A stretch of 64,000 bases of DNA from Procambarus clarkii (taxonomy: Eukaryota; Arthropoda; Malacostraca; Decapoda; Cambaridae), in contig NC_091188.1 of NCBI RefSeq assembly GCF_040958095.1, forward strand, positions 6,116,556 to 6,180,555, in the 5' to 3' direction. The notes under the pieces were generated by a model that made no database searches, was not told where the DNA came from, and saw only the letters and a program-made list of their open reading frames with translations. Positions 1 through 63,594 of the stretch are shown one piece after another; position 1 is the stretch's first letter, and each line of letters begins with the position of its first letter. The position numbers were made by a program, and so were the translations under genes.

Positions 1-39
1 TTACTACTGTCCACCATTGCCAATCTCTTTACCATTTCT

Positions 40-520
40 TCACCCTCTTGGATCATCTTGATTCTTGTTTTTATTTGTTTCAAGGTTAACTGACATACAA
101 CATCAACAAGAGTTTTTTCCGTGGCTCTCTTTGCTATCTCATCAACTGCCTCATTCAACAGTATTCCCACATGTGAAGGGATCCACATGAATCTTACTTT
201 ATACCCAGTTTTTTCTAATTTCTTAACATTCTCTCTACACTCTATCACAATATTCTGGTAAACTGGTCGTCTGCTAGTTAAAGACTCTAACGCTTCTCTA
301 CTGTCAATAAAGAAGCAAGCATTTTTACCACAGTTAAGTACTTCCTGTAATCCTGCTTGGAGCTCAGCCTGCGTTGAAGAGACATTGTCAGTTAAGTGGC
401 GACCAATAACAGTATCTACAGTGCTGATGTCAGTGTACTCCCTGATCAAGACTCCACATCGTGCCTTCCCATCCCTAGTTATTGACCCATCACAATATAC
501 ATGTAGAGTGTTTTCTGTAG
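40..520 (-). pseudogene. LINE RNase H domain
   Basis: The minus-strand reading gives the four RNase H acidic or His landmarks in order: YCDGSIT (first Asp, near 500), STQAELQAGL (Glu, near 370), FFIDSREAL (Asp, near 310), and MWIPSHVGI...NEAVDEIAKRA (His and last Asp, 140-195). All four are intact, although the copy is broken further upstream. The domain ends near 100 and the reading continues toward the window edge. RNase H placed after RT assigns the copy to a LINE group that encodes its own RNase H. Confidence 0.8.
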
Positions 521-729
521 GTAATTTTCTAATTATACAATCATATGTTGCCCTCAGCTCTCCTATCTCATACATGCTTTTTTCTTTTGAAAGGTAATAA
601 TTACTACATCTACATTACAATCCTCCCATGGTGGTGTGAATTGTCTCTTAGGCAGAGCAATACATTCTGTAATAACATTATACTTTATAACATTAGAACA
701 TAAGGTACTCAAATATGCTCTCTTCTTTA

Positions 730-1107
730 TCATACATTGTTCATTTTGAACAATGAGCCCACCTTTTGAACTGAGAGGATTAATTCATTAGCTCCCCCAC
801 CTCTCATTAATCTAATGGCAGAGGCTACATTTAGCTCTGAAATTCTATCTCCAATACTCTTCAGATTCAACTCCATCCTCATTATCTCAATCATAGCATT
901 TCTTGGGCATCCTAAAATAATTCTCATGGCTTCATTTTGTACCTTCTCCAACTTGCCCATCCTACCTTTACCGAAACAAGAAATGACAGGTACAGCATAA
1001 TCAATAAGGGATCTTATAGTACTCAAGTATATCATTCGTAGCACAGGGACTCCCACTCCCTTTCCACAGCATGCCAAGGCATTCAAAGGTTGTAATCTCT
1101 TTCAATA
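730..1107 (-). pseudogene. LINE RT thumb/connection region
   Basis: This continues the element after the frameshift. It contains RMIYLSTIRSLIDYAVPVIS and LEKVQNEAMRIILGCPRNA, the pattern typical of the post-palm region of LINE reverse transcriptases, where a region related to 'IDYACPIY' is followed by 'LQRIQNKALRIILG'. A stop codon near 1107 interrupts the link to the palm. It leads toward the RNase H domain at lower coordinates. Confidence 0.8.
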
Positions 1108-1186
1108 TTGACCCAACACTCTGTTCATCTCAGCTTCCAAACTCTCATGGGTATATCCAACATATATGCCAAAATATTTATATATA

Positions 1187-1723
1187 TTAACTCCTCTCTA
1201 TATTTTTACCGTTTATTTTCAATATAATGGGCCTCCGACTTCTACATTCAAACTTAGTTTTGTCTTCATTAACCACCAGTCCCATGTGCTGACACAGATT
1301 TCCGAAATTATCCAACACTGTTTGAGCCTTTGAAATATCTTTGCCCTGAAACAAAATATCATCGGCATATATGATTGGAGTTACCCCATTTGAGTATCTC
1401 TCAGATGCTATCTTATTCATTAGTATATTAAACAGGGTGGGACTCAACACTCCTCCCTGAGGTGTGCCGAGTTCAAAAGATCTCACACCTGACATACAAC
1501 CTTGATACCACACCTGAGCCTTCCTCTCGTGAAGATAATCCTCTATCCAGCGTAATAATCTCCTTTTAACACCAAGACCAGCTAGTTCATATAAGATAAT
1601 CTCTTTATTGGCTTTATCAAATGCTCCTTGTAAATCAATAAAAATTCTATAATAATCATTATCATTAGCTAGACATTTAATAATACAGTCAGAGGTACTT
1701 TTGCCTTTGAGGAACCCGAACAA
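1187..1723 (-). pseudogene. LINE reverse transcriptase palm fragment
   Basis: A 178-codon open stretch carries the RT palm motifs in order. Motif A is FIDLQGAFDKANKEI (catalytic Asp). Motif B is TPQGGVLSPTLFNILMN. Motif C is YADDI with the catalytic Asp pair, followed by GLVVNEDKTKFE. The fingers and all upstream domains are missing. The open frame closes at 1187, and the homologous sequence continues in another frame (IYKYFGIYVGYTHESLEAEMN), so a one-base indel lies near 1190. Not a host gene. Confidence 0.9.
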
Positions 1724-1745
1724 ATTACTAGACAGCTGATCACCT

Positions 1746-2690
1746 ATTATATATAAGTCTATTTAAAATTATCAAGTAAATTCAGGTAAATATACATTTG
1801 TACTTTCCATTGCGTGTGATTCCGCACGAGCCCTCCGAAATGAAACAATGTATCATACACAATGGGGGGAGCCTTGACCACGAAGCCTCGGATTTTCTAT
1901 TCTGATAAGGCCAGTAGACACGGTGACACAGGTATAGACAGGTAAACAAACGTCAAGCATCCCGTCACACCCAAAACAATGTAGCAGTAGATCCGGTGGA
2001 ATCAAGCTTTATCAAGCTATAAAAATAAGCTTTATCAAATAATAGCCATGAAAAAACTCATAGAAATGAATTGAAACTAGAATACTGAATAACAATAGTT
2101 CCAGTCATTCAAAAGCTGTTTATATATCACCCCATTAATTACATTTACAAATTACAATTTTTAATTACATTTACAAATTACGAATCTTAATTACGATTTA
2201 CAAATTACAAATAAAAATAACATGCTAAACATACACTCACTCCACACATTCTCACGTGTTCTTTACGTGTACAAAACCTTGTTCCTAAATGCTAATCTTG
2301 ATCTGAAATTTTTCTCTTGATAGGTGTAACAGAACCCATGAACACCACACCAGAAATAAATATCATATTGATATCCCCAGAGTCAAACTAAATCTGTACA
2401 AACACTCCATGCAAATAAAAAGATCCAGTCTATGAAACTCACTCCCTAATTAATTAAAAAATTGTCCAACCTATGTCTTATTCAACAGTAAAACCAAAAT
2501 GTACCTAATTTCATCCTCATAGTTTTATGCTTCAAACTCACATTGAATCTTCTTGTACTACCCACTTCTCCAATATTAGTACTTAAGACATATATATATC
2601 TTCACCAGTGTAATCACCTGTCAATTTATATTGTAGTTATATGTTGATATAAAAAAATTCTGCAATGTACCTTTTCATCTTACCTGATAT
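1746..2690. other. AT-rich spacer, no gene seen
   Basis: About 950 bases of AT-rich sequence without a convincing ORF. A short degenerate direct repeat built on 'atttacaaatta' lies at 2125-2210. Nothing else is recognised. Confidence 0.5.
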
Positions 2691-13900: not shown

Positions 13901-16301
13901 ATCCAGTTTTCTTTGAATACTGTACAGTACAATGCTTATGCTTTCTTCTAGAGGCAAAGACGTTCCTGCAACTTGAATGAATGTTAATTTGGGTAATGAT
14001 AGTTTCCATTTTATATTCTCTACAGTATTTAATTTTTATATGCTCTTTCTATTTGTTAAACAGGTATTTGTGAAAAAGGGTTGGGGTATTACCTTAATTG
14101 CATTTGTCGTTTACCATTTGACATCACTTCCACTGCACCCTAAATGGATGATTGGTCTCAAACAGCTTTTGATTCGAATTGCTGCCACAACATTCTTCTT
14201 CTTCATTTGGTGTGCGGTGAGTCAGTGATATTTTTCCGTTCATATGTATTTTAATTTTAATATCTTTGCTAATCATGGCTGAAATTCTCTGATAGACTCC
14301 AGTGGAACAAGTCAATAAAACATGGTAATGTTAAGATTTATATGTAATCGGATCCATGAAGGGTATTAGAAGATGTCCAAAGAAGTGTCTTTACTGAGCC
14401 TGTTATTCTCTTGCTCCCTTTGGGTATATCTTGTTAAAATCTCCAGATAGAGTACTGTATATATATAAAATGTCATTGATGATAACAGAACTGCAGTATT
14501 GTTTGTACTGTATTTGCCGTTTATAATACAGGTAATGTAACATTACTTATTGGAGGCATGTTAAATAAACACCAACTAAAACTTAGAAGCTAATTAGGGA
14601 AAGGCAACAAGAGTGTAGTCAGTGCACCTAACGGGCCCCTGTTGTAAGTAGACTAATAAAGGTCAACAGTTCAGTATAAACATAGGTCAAGTAAAGTTGT
14701 GTTGTGTAATGCTCATTGTAATTTGTACACAACTGGAAGGTTCTGGGTTCGATTTCTGCACAAGATAGAGATGTTTGGGAATATTATTTTACACCTGATC
14801 TGTTCACCTGGCAATAAATAGGTACCTGGGAGTTAGACAACTGTTGTGGGTGGCAGCCTGGGTAAGTCATTTGTTGGACTAGGGAGACCTCAGTAAACTT
14901 AACAGGCTCCCTGTCCCCAACAATGGGAAACTGTGATAGATGCTAACTCTACTGATGGTTTGGAGTACCCTTGCTTAGCTATTGCAAATTTACGTCAGAT
15001 GAATGAAGGATTCCTACCACTTAGGTGTAGGGTCCCTTAACTCATTCCTCAATTTACTTGACTTGACTCAATAAATTCCCTTCACACAACAAGCACTGGT
15101 ATTTTTAATGGAAACATTTCTTACACACTTCCATATAAAGCCCTTTCTGTTGTGTTGACTCGGAGGGAGTGTCATAAGGGCATGCAGCAGTCAAGAACTA
15201 CAATTTTTCATTTAATATCAGGTAATGTATTCTTTCCTCAAATCATCAGCATCTGAGTGGTTCTTGTTAATCTTGGGGAGGTTTTGGAAAATTATTCTGT
15301 GGGATATACCCAAAACTGCACGTGATGTGCAGGAAATACTAAGTACCATGATATATGCATGTATTGAGTATAGGGCTAGAGCTGTTCATACAGCTGAATG
15401 CACTTCCTTGCAGTGTTATGCTCTATGTTCATTTACAGATTTCTGTGTTCAGGTGCTTTAAATAGGCACAAAGGCAATCAAGTAGTGAGAATACATTATT
15501 CCATAGAGAAATTATGTACCGGGACATTAAAAGTAGTTGTTAGCTGATGTAGTATTTATATATACCAGTACAAGTTCTGAATAAAGGAAAAAGTATTGTA
15601 TTATACTTGTACAAATAGAGAAGCTGGAAGGAGAAGTCTTGGTGATGTTTGATAGGGAGAAATTGATAATTATATAATGTGTACAGCTGTAGATGGAATT
15701 ATGAAAGGGTAAGGAAGAATAGGACCTCTGTGAAATAATTCATTATTTATGTACAGTACTGTAATAATCAATTACTAATTAATGTTCTTCATTACAGGTT
15801 GTTTTTGAAGTGGCTGAGCAATACTCAGAGGTCTGCACATTTAATAACATTAAGGTTGAATTAACTAAGAGACAGTGTTTGAAACTTAAAGACCATGTGT
15901 ACTATTCTTTTGATATTTCTGGTCACTCTTTCCTCACAACTTACTGTGTTCTCATTATGATGGAGGAAAGTAAAGAAATCCTCTACTTCCTTTGGCTGGG
16001 AAAATGTTTGCGTGGAATACCGACAAATACATCAGAGAGCATTGGCTTGGCCAAATTTGATGAGAAAGACACCAAGATATTACACTCAAGATATACCATA
16101 ATGTCTCCCATTGTGGTGGTCAGTTTTGTGTGCATTGTTTTGCTGTGCCTTATCTGGGATTTTATGTTTATTATAACCACGTTGTATTACCATAACTTTC
16201 TGGAGAAGGTAATTGGTACAATCCTTGCTGTGAGTACGTGGTACTTCTTATATAGACAGCTATTTACGTATGTTTTTAAACATAAATTTTTTCTTTCTTA
16301 G
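10894..16301 (+). CDS. Fitm2: Fat storage-inducing transmembrane protein (FITM/FIT2 family), four coding exons
   Basis: Spliced coding model: 10894-10930, 11654-11865, 14064-14216 and 15798-16301, giving about 301 residues. Human FITM2 has about 262. FIT proteins are multi-spanning ER membrane proteins that cleave acyl-CoA at the lumenal face and are needed for normal lipid droplet budding. The diagnostic FDISGHSF motif is present. The two catalytic His positions of the family correspond to H177 (in FDISGHSF) and H266 (in YYHNFLEKV). The loop between them is about 30 residues longer than in the human protein. The three later exons join in frame with consensus splice sites. Exon 1 is inferred from phase. 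Introns 2 and 3 carry SINE relics. The paralogue level (FITM1 or FITM2) is nominal; arthropods usually have one FIT gene. Confidence 0.9.
11654..11865 (+). CDS. Fitm2: FITM exon 2
   Basis: The acceptor is a T-rich tract ending cttttccag (11645-11653). The donor is ACG|GTAAGT at 11866. It encodes a polar lead, then PSEVKIGYYFITLLMLSLVK (first membrane segment) and ends DMLTGKHSVLNT, matching the family's conserved 'KRNVLNVYFVK' boundary, which is split here between exons 2 and 3. It leaves in phase 0. Confidence 0.85.
12610..12785 (-). mobile_element. Decayed tRNA-SINE in FITM intron 2
   Basis: Reverse-oriented B box (gggatttgaacccgg, about 12768-12782) and body word 'gggtacctatttactactag'. 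The copy is diverged relative to 42231-42490. Confidence 0.65.
12838..13030 (+). mobile_element. Decayed tRNA-SINE in FITM intron 2
   Basis: 'ccaggttcgaatcatgg' (B box), 'agtaaataggtacctaggag' and 'gactgcatcctgaggagagg' in the order of the SINE family. It ends near a G9 run. Confidence 0.65.
13365..13560 (-). mobile_element. Decayed SINE with the 'ccgggccgcgggg' module
   Basis: Reverse complement of the module seen at 34690-34830: 'tttcggggaccagtgtccca', 'tagtcaaccaagctgttgga' and 'acctggttgatcaggta' occur in matching order. Strongly diverged. Confidence 0.5.
14064..14216 (+). CDS. Fitm2: FITM exon 3
   Basis: The acceptor is ctatttgttaaacag and the donor is GCG|GTGAGT at 14217. It begins VFVKKGWGITLIAFVVYHLT, equivalent to the FIT 'YFVK-x-W-W' segment, and ends with the hydrophobic stretch RIAATTFFFFIWCA. 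It therefore supplies the second and third membrane segments. Enters and leaves in phase 0. Confidence 0.9.
14695..14950 (+). mobile_element. Decayed tRNA-SINE in FITM intron 3
   Basis: 'tctgggttcgatttctg' (B box), 'caataaataggtacctggga' and 'gttgtgggtggcagcctggg' follow the SINE order. TSDs were not determined. Confidence 0.65.
15798..16301 (+). CDS. Fitm2: FITM exon 4 (catalytic, terminal)
   Basis: The acceptor is gttcttcattacag. The exon carries the FDISGHSFLTTYC signature with the catalytic His codon at 15924, then a long polar loop (about 170 bp). Hydrophobic IVVVSFVCIVLLCLIW follows, then the second His at 16191 (YYHNFLEKVIGT), and a last segment AVSTWYFLYRQLF. TAG stop at 16299-16301. 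A GTAATT within the exon (16209) is not used, since family homology continues past it. Confidence 0.92.
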   Translation, partial: VVFEVAEQYSEVCTFNNIKVELTKRQCLKLKDHVYYSFDISGHSFLTTYCVLIMMEESKEILYFLWLGKCLRGIPTNTSESIGLAKFDEKDTKILHSRYTIMSPIVVVSFVCIVLLCLIWDFMFIITTLYYHNFLEKVIGTILAVSTWYFLYRQLFTYVFKHKFFLS

Positions 16302-22445: not shown

Positions 22446-22570
22446 TGTGTGTGTGTGTGTGTGTACTCACCTAATTGTGCTTGCGGAGGTTGAGCTCTGG
22501 CTCTTTGGTCCCGCCTCTCAACCGTCAATGAACAGGTGTACAGGTTCCTGAGCCTACTGGGCTCTATATA
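22440..22570 (-). mobile_element. Inverted LINE 3' end
   Basis: 'gtactcacctaattgtgctt', 'ccgcctctcaaccgtcaatg' and 'ggttcctgagcctactgggc' repeat the preceding element in reverse orientation. The two copies are tail to tail around a (GT)n tract at 22440-22463. Confidence 0.7.
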
Positions 22571-31965: not shown

Positions 31966-32184
31966 CTTCCCGTATTGGGACCCTACTGAACAATAATTTC
32001 GCCGACCTTCGTACACAACGAATTACTTACTATTCTGCAAATGTATATCATCACCAGTTGGGTCATGATATTGCTTTTTCTCGGGGCTTCTAAGATCTGA
32101 AGTCATCATCATCTTTGAAGACAAGTACCCTTATGGCATCGAGGCCTTCCTCAACCTTAAGTACCCTAAGCAGGCGACGAGTCA

Positions 32185-32275: not shown

Positions 32276-32452
32276 TTGACTGTTGCCAGCTGATATCTGG
32301 CAACACCTAATTTTCTGGACTTGGACCCTTCCATGTGCCGTCATCAAGTTCCACCCGCAGCATATCTTTAGTACACGTTAATTAGCTCTCCGGGTCCGTC
32401 TTGGCTACACTCTTGTTTCCTCTGACCCCGTCATATCCGGTCCCGCGTGTGA

Positions 32453-32895
32453 TGTTGTTGTTATAGATTCAGCAACTCGGAACAAGTTCCAAGTAGCACG
32501 GGCTATGGTGAGCCCGTAGTGGACTTACCTGGCACGGGAGCGGGGCAAGCAGCACGGGCTATGGTGAGCCCGTAGTGGACTTACCTGGCACGGGAGCGGG
32601 GCAAGCAGCACGGGCTATGGTGAGCCCGTAGTGGACTTACCTGGCACAGGAGCGGGGCAAGCAGCACGGGCTATGGTGAGCCCGTAGTGGACTTACCTGG
32701 CACAGGAGCGGGGCAAGTAGCACGGGCTATGGTGAGCCCGTAGTGGACTTACCTGGCACAGGAGCGGGGCAAGTAGCACGGGCTATGGTGAGCCCGTAGT
32801 GGACTTACCTGGCACAGGAGCGGGGCAAGTAGCACGGGCTATGGTGAGCCCGTAGTGGACTTACCTGGCACAGGAGCGGTGCTGAATGATGATAG
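32453..32895 (-). mobile_element. VNTR-bearing short retroposon, 7 internal units
   Basis: Flanked by target-site duplications tcccgcgtgtga (32441-32452) and tccccgcgtgtga (32896-32908). On the plus strand it starts (TTG)n-ttatagattcagc. The ggaacaagttcc stem-loop follows, then seven 56-bp units beginning cacgggctatggtgagcccg (starts 32497, 32553, 32609, 32665, 32721, 32777, 32833). It ends ggagcggtgct. Variable-length TSDs and a simple tail indicate LINE-mediated retroposition, with the (CAA)n 3' tail on the minus strand. Each unit has a 7-bp stem (acgggct/agcccgt). Confidence 0.85.
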
Positions 32896-33290
32896 TCCCC
32901 GCGTGTGAGAGCCTCACCAGTGCCTATTTTCCCTCTTGGCTCCCCATTTCCCATCTTCCCATCTCAAGAGATTCCCTCGCATTTCCTATTTTCCCATTCC
33001 ATCTCCCTTCTTCACTTACCTTCTGGTTACCTTGTGATCGTTTCCGGGGCTTAGCGTCCCAGCGGCCCGGTCCTCGACCAGGTTTCAAACACTATTTTCC
33101 CTTCCATTTCCCCCCTCTTCCGTTCCTGTCTCCATTTTCCATCTCCCCCCCAACCCCCGCCGACCTCACCCTCGTGGTCCTCCTCCCCCACCCCCCCCCC
33201 CTCCCCACGGACTGGTCGTGTTGACTGGGCTCGACCAATCACAGTAGCCCGGGGCGCTAACGACCTTCTAGCTCACACAAGAGACCAGGG
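32896..33290. other. Pyrimidine-rich spacer with a SINE module
   Basis: C/T-rich sequence. At 33035-33085 lies the reverse SINE module ('cggggcttagcgtccc', 'ggcccggtcctcgaccagg'). Confidence 0.55.
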
Positions 33291-33537
33291 GCTAGATTCA
33301 CGCAAGCACTTACGAACCTGTACATCTTTTCTCAATCTTTGGCGGCTTTGTTTCCAATTATTAAACAGTTAATGAGCTCCGAAGCACCAGGAGGCTGTTT
33401 ATAACAATAACAACAGTTGATTGGCAAGTTTTCATGCTTGTAAACTGTTTAATAAATGTAACCAAAGCCGCCAAAGATTGAGGAAAGATGTACACGTTCG
33501 TAAGTACTTGCGTAAGTGCTTTAGTGAATCTGACCCC
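33288..33537. mobile_element. Foldback MITE, 250 bp, copy 1
   Basis: The ends ggggctagattcacg and agtgaatctgacccc are inverted repeats that extend inward for about 110 bp on each side ('caatctttggcggctttg' against 'caaagccgccaaagattg'). No coding capacity. Other copies are at 42638, 43984 and 59001. Confidence 0.85.
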
Positions 33538-34179: not shown

Positions 34180-34260
34180 GAAGTCTGTCAAGATCAAGGG
34201 CCCCAAGACTATTCAACACTTTCCAAACCAGCTCGTATCTCCTAAGGTTTCTCAACGTCA
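34180..34260 (+). pseudogene. LINE-like C-terminal fragment (RAPRLFN)
   Basis: One frame reads RAPRLFNTFQTSSYL, resembling the conserved 'RGPRLFNSLP' near the end of some LINE ORF2s. It is interrupted by the retroposon at 34261. Confidence 0.4.
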
Positions 34261-34464
34261 TGTTGTTGTTGTTATAGATTCAGCTACTCGGAACAAGTTC
34301 CAAGTAGCACGGGCTATGGTGAGCCCGTAACTTACCTGGCACAGGAGCGGGGCAAGTAGCACAGGCTATGGTTAGCCCGTAGTGGACTTACCTAGCACAG
34401 GAGCGGGGCAAGTAGCACGGGCTATGGTGAGCCCGTAGTGGACTTACCTGGCACAGGAGCGGAG
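34261..34464 (-). mobile_element. VNTR-bearing short retroposon, 3 units
   Basis: TSDs are tctcaacgtca (34250-34260) and tcccaacgtca (34465-34475). The same site without insertion is seen at 3780 (tttcccaacgtcaag), so this is an empty-site comparison within one repeat family. Three 56-bp units; in the first, the 'gtagtgga' part is shortened to gta. Confidence 0.85.
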
Positions 34465-34675
34465 TCCCAACGTCAAGAAAACGGTCAATTTAAAGTGTCC
34501 TCTCCTAACCTACCAGAGGACCCACAACAGAAAACGGGACATAGTACGTCACTTTCCGCCAGCCGATGCCATTTTCTAGCACGACAATTTTTGACCTTAG
34601 GTAACGCCTACGATGGAAATGCGACGTACTATGTAAGAGGACAGATTGGTGTAAACATAAGGGGCATAACTTATA
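34465..34675. repeat. Interspersed repeat with internal inverted arms
   Basis: 'catagtacgtc' and 'gacgtactatg' (34542 and 34622) are exact inverted repeats. The first 50 bases match 3779-3830. The target of the preceding insertion. Confidence 0.55.
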
Positions 34676-38547: not shown

Positions 38548-39174
38548 GTACTCACCTAATTGTGCTTGCGGGGGTTGAGCTTTGGCTCTTTGGTCCCGCC
38601 TCTCAACTGTCAATCAACTGGTGTACAGATTCCTGAGCCTACTGGGCTCTATCATACCTACATTTGAAACTGTGTATGGAGTCAGCCTCCACCACATCAC
38701 TTCCTAGTGCATTCCATTTATTAACTACTCTGACACTGAAAAAATTCTTTCTAACGTCTCTGTGGCTCATCTGGGTACTAAGTTTCCACCTGTGTCCCCT
38801 TGTTCGTGTCCCACCCGTGCTGAAGAGTTTGTCTTTGTCCACCCTGTCAATTCCCCTGAGAATTTTGTAGGTGGTTATCATGTCTCCCCTTACTCTTCTG
38901 TTTTCCAGGGATGTGAGGTTCAGCTCCTTTAGCCTTTCCTCGTAGCTCAATCCTCTCAGTTCCGGGACGAGCCTGGTGGCATACCGCTGAATCTTCTCTA
39001 ACTTTGTCTTGTGTTTAACTAGGTATGGACTCCAGGCTGGAGCTGCATACTCCAGGATTGGTCTTACATAAGTGGTATACAGGGTTCTGAAAGATTCCTT
39101 ACACAAGTTTCTGAAGGCAGTTCTTATGTTGGCCAGTCTAGCATATGCCGCTGATGATATTCTTTTGATGTGGG
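38548..39174 (-). mobile_element. 3' end of a CR1/L2-like LINE
   Basis: The longest LINE piece of this family in the window. The coding part is 39170-38639, followed by the 3'UTR ('gttgagaggcgggaccaaag', 'gcaagcacaattaggtgagt'). The same tail is found at 19595, 21690, 22030, 22440, 43200 and 59730. 5' truncated, as usual for LINE copies. Confidence 0.85.
38639..39170 (-). pseudogene. LINE ORF2 C-terminal region (intact frame, truncated)
   Basis: About 176 open codons: KRISSAAYARLANIRTAFRN, TTYVRPILEYAAPAWSPYL, KLEKIQRYATRLVPELRGL, SYEERLKELNLTSLENRRVR and VVNKWNALGSDVVEADSIHS, then stop. This is the thumb and C-terminal tail after the RT palm in CR1/L2-type LINEs. The palm is absent. No frameshift is visible, so the copy is fairly young. 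Confidence 0.85.
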
Positions 39175-39263
39175 TTTACTGTGTTTACTGCCCCATGTTG
39201 TGTCCTGTGGCTGGCGCCCTCGCTCCTCCTCCTCCCAGGTGCTGCCACACCACAGCACCTCTT

Positions 39264-40008: not shown

Positions 40009-40110
40009 CCCGTAAGTGGTGGCCCTTTTGAGCCATTACCAGTATCAAGAGCTGATACTGGAGATCTGTGGAGGTGCAACTGCACCCTGCGTGACGGGAG
40101 ATGTCTCCCC
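40006..40110 (+). mobile_element. Second copy of the 37.45-kb short element
   Basis: 'cccgtaagtggtggcccttt' to 'cgtgacgggagatgtctccc'. It ends exactly where the next retroposon's target duplication begins. Confidence 0.75.
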
Positions 40111-40122
40111 CGTGGCGTCACG

Positions 40123-40220
40123 TTGTTGTTGTTATTGTTATAGATTCAGCTACACGGAACAAGTTCCAAGTAGCACGGGCTATGGTGAGCCCGTAGCTTA
40201 CCTGGCACAGGAGCAGTGCT
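40123..40220 (-). mobile_element. Minimal (single-unit) VNTR-retroposon, 98 bp
   Basis: TSDs ccgtggcgtcacg (40110-40122) and ccgtagcgtcacg (40221-40233) define the complete element. It has a (TTG)n end, 'atagattcagctacacgg', the ggaacaagttcc stem, one cacgggctatggtgagcccg hairpin unit, then 'cttacctggcacaggagcag' and tgct. This is the reference form without tandem expansion. Confidence 0.85.
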
Positions 40221-40317
40221 CCGTAGCGTCACGCTAACGTCCCCATCTTGTAGTATGGTTAGTCTTGACAACCCCTAACACCTCTCCCCTCCACCCACCC
40301 CCACCTGACAACTCCCA

Positions 40318-42896: not shown

Positions 42897-43080
42897 CAAG
42901 GCTCTCCCACACGCCCCGAATCCGTTAACATGTAACGTATTTTGTACAAATTTCGACACTAATATTATCGTTTTCTTTGCAGCTACCTCGTTGGGTTAGA
43001 TGGGTTGCTGGGGTTCGTACTTTTCTGGTTATTGAAAACAGTTGTATTTTTTTTTTTACGGTATGACAAATGGAGAGATG

Positions 43081-43150
43081 TTGTTGTTTCAGATTTAGCT
43101 ACTCAGAACGAAGTGTCCATGTAGCACGGGCTATGGTGAGCCCGTAGAAA
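43081..43150 (-). mobile_element. VNTR-retroposon, truncated copy
   Basis: 'ttgttgtttcagatttagct' through the hairpin unit 'cacgggctatggtgagcccg', ending at gtag followed by A9. The body beyond the hairpin is absent. Confidence 0.7.
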
Positions 43151-43214: not shown

Positions 43215-43256
43215 TGTGTACTCACCTATTTGTACTCGCCTATTTGTGCTTGCAGG
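43215..43256 (-). mobile_element. LINE 3' tail, left part, split by an insertion
   Basis: 'gtgtactcacctatttgtac' to tgcttgcagg. It continues at 43457 with tgcttgcgggggttgagg and 'ggctctttggtcccgcctct' (to 43495). The retroposon at 43257 lies between. Confidence 0.75.
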
Positions 43257-43456
43257 GACATTCAGCACCGCTCCTGTGCCAGGTAAGTTCACTACGGGCT
43301 CACCATAGCCCGTGCTACTTGCCCCGCTCCTGTGCCAGGTAAGTTACGGGCTCACCATAGCCCATGCTACTTGCCCCGCTCCTGTGCCAGGTAAGTTACG
43401 GGCTCACCATAGCCCGTGCTACTTGGAACTTGTTCCGAGTAGCTGAATCTATAACA
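43257..43456 (+). mobile_element. VNTR-retroposon nested in a LINE tail, 3 units
   Basis: Flanked by tgcttgcagg (43247-43256) and tgcttgcggg (43457-43466), a 10-bp TSD inside LINE 3' sequence. Here the element lies in sense on the plus strand: gcaccgctcctgtgccagg, three hairpin units (near 43293, 43347, 43399), the ggaacttgttcc stem and a short gaatctataaca end. Confidence 0.85.
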
Positions 43457-43685
43457 TGCTTGCGGGGGTTGAGGTCTGGCTCTTTGGTCCCGCCTCTGTG
43501 TGGTGGAGCGTGGGAGTGTGTGAGGCTGGGGTGTGTTGCGGAAGTGCTGCCCAGCCCCGGTCACACCTCCACTCAGTAATTCAGTGTCGGCTTGTCATGA
43601 ATATGGGCTCCAGGCCGGCGGGTTTGTCACCCCCGGCGTCCACTCCCGCACCAGCGTGTTCACCACTCTTGTTGGTCATGTGTGT

Positions 43686-43766
43686 AAGACGGGCTCACCA
43701 TAGCCCGTGCTACTTGGAACTTCTTGTTCCAGGTAGCAAATCTTGGAACTTCTTGTTCCAGGTAGC
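43686..43766 (+). mobile_element. VNTR-retroposon fragment with duplicated stem
   Basis: One hairpin unit (acgggctcaccatagcccgt) then 'cttggaacttcttgttccag' twice. It abuts the left edge of the large palindrome. Confidence 0.7.
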
Positions 43767-46341: not shown

Positions 46342-46430
46342 CTAAATCTAAATCTAACAATCTAAAAAAACACAAACAAAACAAACACAATAAAATGTCT
46401 CACAAAGGATGTATACACCGCTGGGAAGAT

Positions 46431-46996
46431 GTTGTTGTTGTTGTTGTTGTTGTCATAGATTCGTCGGAACAAGTTCCAAGTAGCACGGGCTATGGTGAGC
46501 CCGTAGTGGACTTACCTGGCACAGGAGCGGGGCAAGTAGCACGGGCTATGGTGAGCCCGTAGTGGACTTACCTGGCACAGGAGCGGGGCAAGTAGCACGG
46601 GCTATGGTGAGCCCGTAGTGGACTTACCTGGCACAGGAGCGGGGCAAGTAGCACGGGCTATGGTGAGCCCGTAGTGGACTTACCTGGCACAGGAGCGGGG
46701 CAAGTAGCCCGGGCTATGGTGATCCCGTAGTGGACTTACCTGGCACAGGAGCGGGGCAAGTAGCACGGGCTATGGTGAGCCCGTAGTGGACTTACCTGGC
46801 ACAGGAGCGGGGCAAGTAGCACGGGCTATGGTGAGCCCGTAGTGGACTTACCTGGCACAGGAGCGGGGCAAGTAGCACGGGCTATGGTGAGCCCGTAGTG
46901 GACTTACCTGGCACAGGAGCGGGGCAAGTAGCACGGGCTATGGTGAGCCCGTAGTGGACTTACCTGGCACAGGAGCGGGGCAAGTAGCACGGGCTA
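46431..46996 (-). mobile_element. VNTR-retroposon with about 9.5 units, 5'-truncated
   Basis: (TTG)8-like end, 'catagattcgtcggaacaag', then 56-bp units starting at 46484, 46540, 46596, 46652, 46708, 46764, 46820, 46876 and 46932, and a partial at 46988. It stops inside a unit (cacgggctat|tctgg). On the element's own strand that is the 5' end, so this is 5' truncation, typical of retroposition. The unit at 46708 has paired-arm changes. Confidence 0.85.
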
Positions 46997-46999
46997 TTC

Positions 47000-56105: not shown

Positions 56106-56206
56106 TTTGTTGTTGTTTTAGATTCAGCCACTGGGAACAGAAAGTTGCAAGTAGCACGGGCTATGGTGACCCCGTAGTGGACTTACCTGGCACAGGAGCG
56201 GCGCTG
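56106..56206 (-). mobile_element. VNTR-retroposon, single-unit copy
   Basis: 'ttgttgttgttttagattca', a diverged stem (gggaacagaaagttgc), one hairpin unit with a broken arm (gtgaccccg), and 'ggcacaggagcggcgct'. It directly precedes the 29/30-bp array. Confidence 0.75.
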
Positions 56207-56224
56207 TAACTTGCAAGGCTTGGG

Positions 56225-59729: not shown

Positions 59730-59825
59730 ACTCTCAGTTGATTGACGGTTGAGAGGCGGGACCAAAGAGCCAGAGCTCAACCCCCAACCCCGCAAGCACA
59801 ATCAGGTGAGTACACCCCCCCCCCA
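59730..59825 (+). mobile_element. LINE 3' tail
   Basis: 'gattgacggttgagaggcgg', 'gaccaaagagccagagctca' and 'caagcacaatcaggtgagta', then C10. Confidence 0.75.
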
Positions 59826-63533: not shown

Positions 63534-63594
63534 CCTGTAGCACGGGCTATGGTGAGCCCGTAGTGGACTTACCTGGCACAGGAGCGGTGCTTCG
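63534..63594 (-). mobile_element. VNTR-retroposon, truncated single unit
   Basis: 'tagcacgggctatggtgagc' to 'ggcacaggagcggtgct'. The (TTG)n and ggaacaagttcc parts are missing. Confidence 0.7.

Follow-up and report, generated by a model that had tools for sequence, protein, structure and literature searches.

The described systems closest to the element reported here are SINEs whose 3′ end is also that of a LINE and the SVA-type retroposons of hominoids; to our knowledge, retroposons with an internal VNTR are mainly known from the latter group. LINE-tailed SINEs are short and non-autonomous, are flanked by target site duplications (TSDs) of variable length, end in a simple repeat tail and carry the 3′ domain of a longer retroelement. 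SVA and LAVA elements contain an internal VNTR of GC-rich units of 30–50 bp. In PMC4432496, changes in unit number at shared sites (orthologues and segmental duplicates) are ascribed to DNA-level events, and new LAVA insertions in cells are described with their unit number unchanged. Among decapods, SINEs were rare in all genomes covered by a repeat survey, and a recent SINE peak was noted in two Procambarus species and P. monodon (PMC10454600). Here we describe a repeat family of Procambarus clarkii, present in a 64,000-nt stretch of DNA (the window) and in large numbers in the genome, which we interpret as a SINE with a LINE-type tail and an internal VNTR resembling that of SVA, apparently independent of the hominoid system.

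The first-pass annotation of the window had placed the repeat at nine positions, and it was matched at all nine (Table 1). The unit counts of 1 (40123, 56106), 3 (34261, 43257) and 7 (32453) were reproduced, and the estimate of about 9.5 units at 46431 corresponds to 9 full units plus 17 bases. Read on the opposite strand, the (TTG)n side is the 3′ end of the RNA, whose sense sequence therefore closes with (CAA)n; in the basic family the full 5′ end extends past GCGG, reading GCTGTAACTT on the window strand. In the sense orientation, each VNTR unit of the seven-unit copy contains a single ACGGGCT/AGCCCGT hairpin and a single CAGGTAAGT. Unit spacing in the copy at 43257 is 56 bp and then 52 bp, and the plus-strand fragment that follows that copy has a hairpin piece duplicated alongside. 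All nine copies are situated in the more GC-rich half of the window (0.55 vs 0.38 GC).

Table 1 Copies of the element in the window, with their internal features and TSDs (window coordinates).
Feature	Position	Sense strand	Remarks
Seven-unit copy	32453..32897	−	5′ end near 32897; (CAA)n tail 32453-32461
TSD of the 32453 copy	32442-32452 / 32898-32908		11 bp exact, CCCGCGTGTGA
GGAAC..GTTCC hairpin of the seven-unit copy	32479..32490	−	3′ domain common to the longer retroelement
VNTR, 56-bp unit ×7	32490..32879	−	Inside the 32453 copy
Three-unit copy	34261..34464	−	5′-long, long, short-3′
TSD of the 34261 copy	34250-34260 / 34465-34475		10/11 bp, TCTCAACGTCA/TCCCAACGTCA
Copy with one short unit	40123..40220	−	
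TSD of the 40123 copy	40110-40122 / 40221-40233		12/13 bp, CCGTGGCGTCACG/CCGTAGCGTCACG
Copy with a partial unit	43079..43147	−	Ends after the first hairpin of its sole unit; TSD candidate GAGAGA weak
Three-unit copy	43258..43456	+	Inside the 3′ tail of a LINE-like repeat
TSD of the 43257 copy	43247-43257 / 43457-43467		10/11 bp, CCCTGCAAGCA/CCCCGCAAGCA
Fragment	43689..43730	+	Hairpin and part of one unit
Copy with 9 full units + 17 bases	46430..46997	−	TSD not found
Single-unit copy	56106..56212	−	Basic family; no clear TSD
One unit without CAA (TTG) end	63534..63590	−	Adjoins a minisatellite

The window itself shows a GC step at 32 kb (0.42 to 0.53 in 4-kb bins): positions 32001–64000 are GC-rich with about 30 tandem arrays, compared with roughly a dozen in the AT-rich left half. 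LINE pieces with reverse transcriptase and RNase H (Pfam PF00078, PF00075) occupy positions 1–1762 on the minus strand; this LINE extends beyond the window start and has frame breaks. A LINE-like C-terminus at 38579–39175, also on the minus strand, gave no Pfam match. The plus-strand frame at 15783–16301 matches FIT, fat storage-inducing transmembrane protein (Pfam PF10261, E=3.2e-16), and is probably a host gene exon. Some 250 bp at 33281–33532 gave sub-threshold matches to miRNA-precursor models on both strands and seem to form a foldback element or long inverted repeat.

Across the genome (4.03 Gb, 2,308 contigs), copies define a basic element of ~105 nt, a 32-nt head followed by a two-hairpin 3′ domain, with the sense-strand consensus AAGTTACAGCCCCGCTCCTGTGCCAGGTAAGTCCACTACGGGCTCACCATAGCCCGTGCTACTTGGAACTTTTTGTTCCSAGTAGCTGAATCTAAAACAACAAC. 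It is short, has no reading frame of its own and ends in a simple-sequence 3′ tail, (CAA)n, whose length varies among copies. The exact 5′ 25-mer occurs 4,903 times, the exact 3′ tail ending in WAAAC 3,819 times (including some copies of the longer partner described below) and the exact tail of the ATAAC type, that of most VNTR copies read, 5,481 times; the reversed-pattern control gave 0 in each case. Genome copies were fetched with the single-unit copy at 56106 as the query and represent the best-scoring 40 candidates, so identity values drawn from them are biased. The spread is uneven: on contig C1, 35/52 exact 5′ ends fall within 27% of the length (28–46 Mb), 6 were observed below 28 Mb where 22 are expected, and four 10-kb stretches elsewhere in the genome held zero copies. 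Low-complexity contexts excluded, no run of at least (CAA)4 without a preceding GCTGAATC-like end was present in 321,694 bases. No family name or description was found in the open-access literature, where text searches with pieces of the sequence were unmatched, and public viral and prokaryote collections gave no match to the element.

Folding of the sense RNA relative to shuffles was uneven for one-unit forms (z of −0.5, −3.6 and −1.9) and reached −4.3 and −5.5 for three-unit copies; in the consensus hairpins, 0/16 predicted pairs had both sides changed. Pairing of the two ends into a closing stem (ATTCAGC/GCTGAAT), suggested by window copies, was dropped because the 5′ bases differ among copies. 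Another element starting with the same head was also considered and rejected: of 62 head copies that do not continue with CCAC-like letters, 56 have the short form TACG and the other six differ singly or in pairs, as judged from the matched letters only.

The first-pass annotation had taken the repeat for a non-autonomous retroposon with variable-length TSDs and a simple-sequence 3′ tail, which the genome copies support, and had called clear target duplications in four copies. Eight window copies were tested (43686 was left out), and four of them (32453, 34261, 40123 and 43257) have clear flush TSDs, with scores of 8–11 against a maximum of 7 in 56 cross pairings of the flanks; random window stretches reach the same scores in 0.05–0.95% of 2,000 draws each. 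No clear TSD was seen in the other four (46430, 56106, 43079 and 63534), the candidate at 43079 being reached in 5% by chance. For the insertion at 43257 the empty site is visible, since the repeat that it interrupts is also present uninterrupted at 59758, 38597, 22512 and 21739. A recurrent 3′ tail with CAACCCC[CT]GCAAGCACAA-like letters, found also at 22512, 21739 and 59758, served as this empty-site evidence.

Among genome copies, a TSD score of at least 9 was obtained in 19/43 (24 scoring below 9) vs 107/1,806 cross pairs, and a score of at least 8 in 21/43 vs 142/1,806. This set omits three of 46 rows (two L001 rows that are window copies and a false match at L033), and its match at L029 is the tail of a neighbouring SINE rather than a TSD. 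VNTR arrays scored at least 8 in 14/17 cases vs 8/272 cross pairs; the stricter count is 11/15, because the insertions at L074 and L080 are those already counted at L073 and L075, and the match at L081 falls within the element. These 17 derive from 20 loci hand-picked from the first 100 junctions listed, all on C1 and C2, of which three had no 3′ end (L083, L086 and L090). Matched TSDs are ~8–15 bp long, with one possible longer case (L078), and basic copies often have 1–8 extra bases between the TSD and the 5′ end.

These data bear on two readings that do without LINE-type mobility. Segmental duplication, or the spread of an ordinary minisatellite, would account for the copies that sit in duplicated blocks (L075/L080, L073/L074, L008/L091 and L110–L112, the last being copies of the longer partner); however, the flanks of fetched genome copies mostly differ, and many copies combine unrelated flanks with a TSD of their own, making this explanation extremely unlikely. 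Helitron- or Helentron-associated elements of the HINE type, which insert without duplicating their target, have internal tandem units (a minisatellite), a microsatellite end and a terminal hairpin, and the present element likewise combines minisatellite, microsatellite and hairpins. TSDs of ~8–15 bp at distinct sites, an 11-bp TSD against empty sites and the variable length of the (CAA)n tail nevertheless leave a HINE origin with hardly any probability. The first-pass annotation had named missing TSDs, shared flanks and Helitron or TIR ends as grounds for abandoning a retroposon; TSDs stand well above the cross-pair controls, flanks mostly differ, and neither Helitron nor TIR features were present at the element ends seen.

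The two-hairpin 3′ domain with its (CAA)n tail also closes a longer retroelement that has an open reading frame (ORF), a partner found through the comparison with LINE 3′ ends that the first-pass annotation had proposed. Among the 3′ tails that lacked an exact match at the 5′ end, sixteen were selected and read: three (L093, L100 and L104) share another upstream sequence, and the rest are SINE copies, several of them 5′-truncated. SINE positions 32–88 (tail removed) align with these three at scores of 87, 87 and 61, vs shuffle maxima of 25, 25 and 21. A search with the partner 3′ end, in which 40 of 3,305 candidates were scored, listed 42 matches. The locus C5:49446557 carries this 3′ end, and the stretch immediately upstream (L114) leads into an ORF that stops short of the 3′ end and contains the zinc knuckles CX2CX4HX4C, CX2CX3HX4C and CX2CX3HX6C, a three-knuckle set known from ORF1 of I- and jockey-type LINEs; a Pfam scan of the ORF gave a single match, below the cut-off. 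With its gag-like ORF and no reverse transcriptase in the one 2.4-kb upstream stretch read, the partner may itself be non-autonomous. At L114:2–2311, a long minisatellite of ASYGPIAA-like repeats stands in frame ahead of the gag-like ORF. This copy is possibly a half-LINE: it resembles half-LINEs of the HAL1 type in having a gag-like ORF directly before the 3′ end and no reverse transcriptase in the copy read, and differs in that an RT-bearing form of the partner, of which a single 2.4-kb upstream stretch was read, may exist.

Judged by these alignments, the 3′ domain is LINE-type, and its presence in both the SINE and the longer retroelement fits insertion by LINE machinery that recognises this end. 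L008 contains a sister 3′ end whose hairpins are similarly arranged and whose tail is of the (ATCA)n type, ~340 bp downstream of an RNase H ORF; the score of this end against the SINE is 28, near the shuffle maximum of 24. An RT-bearing LINE ending in the SINE 3′ domain was not found in genome tail searches or in the partner copies read. Candidate drivers were rejected as follows: all four matches to a first tail pattern are diverged SINEs, the 27 matches to a second (control 2) are mostly SINE-variant-like in the matched letters, and the 6.6 kb read for the LINE at window positions 1–1762 are free of (CAA)n.

Exact unit junctions number 18,433 in 4.03 Gb (reversed-pattern control 0). The first 100 listed fall into 53 arrays, 37 of which contain a single exact junction; in most longer runs of this sample the spacing is constant at either 52 or 56 bp, an odd unit is present in some (L079, L084 and L088), and the longest array seen has 17 units (L003). 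Two-unit copies are the commonest arrays, and in several copies read the first unit is long (56 bp) and the last short (52 bp). In a comparison of 87 units from 15 arrays, mostly at biased best-scoring loci, unit identity was 0.978 within arrays (329 pairs) vs 0.957 between arrays (3,000 sampled pairs), and adjacent units were no more alike than others of the same array (0.977).

Two pairs of duplicated loci show that unit number was altered after insertion. L075 and L080 have the flanks and TSD in common, with 3 vs 2 units, and L073 and L074 have common flanks and TSD and differ by one unit and a 26-bp deletion; as each pair holds the same insertion with unequal units, the change occurred in DNA, as a gain or a loss. 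This agrees with the earlier suggestion of an internal unit that changes in number. Alternatively, the reverse transcriptase might slip on its template, so that unit number would change during reverse transcription and not in DNA afterwards. Units could then be added at each jump, and the 37/53 arrays with a single exact junction mean that many new copies may start as dimers; yet the two pairs, one unit apart at the same insertion and TSD within near-identical flanks, speak against slippage, as does the constancy of new LAVA insertions in cells (PMC4432496), and we consider it unlikely.

Intact units carry CAGGTAAGT, a perfect 5′ splice-site 9-mer, and in sense RNA each could thereby pair with the U1 5′ end, to which the site is complementary. 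On both window strands the 9-mer occurs 23 times, 23/23 within the element, where about 1 is expected (0.39 + 0.67). It is slightly more conserved than the rest of the element (0.97 vs 0.93 in 49 biased copies), and GGTRAGT is intact in 37/49 aligned copies. A test for spliced retrocopies found breaks exactly after CAG in 3/14 matches (L046, L050 and L051), the remaining 11 being SINE copies with small changes; given 2/10 (L067 and L069) for a control break point 3 nt away, there is no excess of spliced retrocopies. At L050:1500 (minus strand), an apparent 26-base insertion comprises the first bases of the SINE up to CAG only; it stands between AGGCAAG-type direct repeats and has no CAA tail.

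SINEU elements are snRNA-headed SINEs of crocodilians. The present element resembles them in containing 11–12 nt that match the U1 5′ end; unlike in SINEU, this match is antisense and weakens after about 12 nt. Rfam at gathering scores gave no match in the element and at E≤10 weak ones only, and no sense-strand homology of the head to U1 or U2 snRNA was found; Rfam and tRNA scans of the element gave no sign of a tRNA, 7SL, 5S or snRNA origin. U1 was the sole match of one 121-base scan, sub-threshold (E=3.5) and on the antisense strand, a similarity for which complementarity to the splice-site consensus largely accounts.

This match, the confinement of the 23 9-mers to the element and a layout like the general SL RNA plan (as outlined in PMC4664967) could be taken to mean that the head is an snRNA- or SL-like 5′ end, with 26 exon-like nucleotides up to CAG/GTAAGT and then hairpins, the family being an SL- or U1-related SINE. 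But exon-without-donor junctions leaving the SINE were found at 3/14 vs 2/10 in the control, printed copepod and amphipod SL sequences differ in a by-eye comparison, the hairpins belong to the 3′ domain common to the longer retroelement, and an Rfam scan of one basic-family copy gave chance matches only. The probability of the U1 or leader-RNA reading is thus low, and we regard such a head as very improbable. Also very improbable is the idea that the unit is kept for its U1 site, that VNTR growth multiplies these sites and that the ancestor was possibly of the leader type; if true, repeat number would let the retroposon tune its retention in the nucleus, its escape from polyadenylation or its splicing.

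Returning to the LINE-tailed SINE, its copies are dispersed with variable-length TSDs and its 3′ end is common to a coding LINE-type element. As the first-pass annotation had stated, tRNA-type Pol III promoter boxes were not apparent, the best A and B box matches being no better than shuffles on either strand. We use 'SINE' in the wide sense, since many SINEs are defined by such an internal Pol III promoter. The single-unit form often contains a T run, and such a run would be expected to stop Pol III. Unlike described LINE-tailed SINEs, the element was found without a tRNA, 7SL or 5S head, and its internal units multiply. The comparison with SVA drawn in the first-pass annotation holds for behaviour, an internal VNTR remodelled in DNA, and fails for membership: the hexamer, Alu-like part, SINE-R and poly(A) of SVA were not seen in the copies read, Rfam gave no 7SL-type match, the unit and head look unrelated, the basic element is ~105 nt and the host is not a primate.

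We therefore favour, with a probability of about 0.9, a SINE family that inserts by LINE machinery, underwent unit duplication in one lineage and changes unit number at the DNA level. An RNA of ~105 nt, with the 32-nt head, two-hairpin 3′ domain and (CAA)n tail, would, we infer, be made by Pol II or read-through transcription; as a discrete SINE RNA it would start at AAGTTACAGC and end in CAA. Reverse transcription would take place at nicked chromosomal targets, presumably target-primed, by the machinery of a presumed driving LINE with the common 3′ end, an end that we observe directly. Insertion would leave TSDs of ~8–15 bp and 5′ ends that vary, frequently with some additional bases at the 5′ junction; the copies, their TSDs and an empty site are seen directly. 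Duplication of the segment that runs from CCCCGCTCC to GCTACTTG would have taken place in a single lineage, probably in one founder dimer. After insertion, single copies would gain or lose units in DNA, a step for which same-site copies with unequal units are the direct observation.

The 18,433 junctions, the segmental-duplicate pairs and the likely founder dimer offer a second system for tandem-unit growth in mobile elements. The common hairpin 3′ end makes the partnership between SINE and LINE testable, and the many splice donors on the sense strand may alter how host transcripts are spliced.
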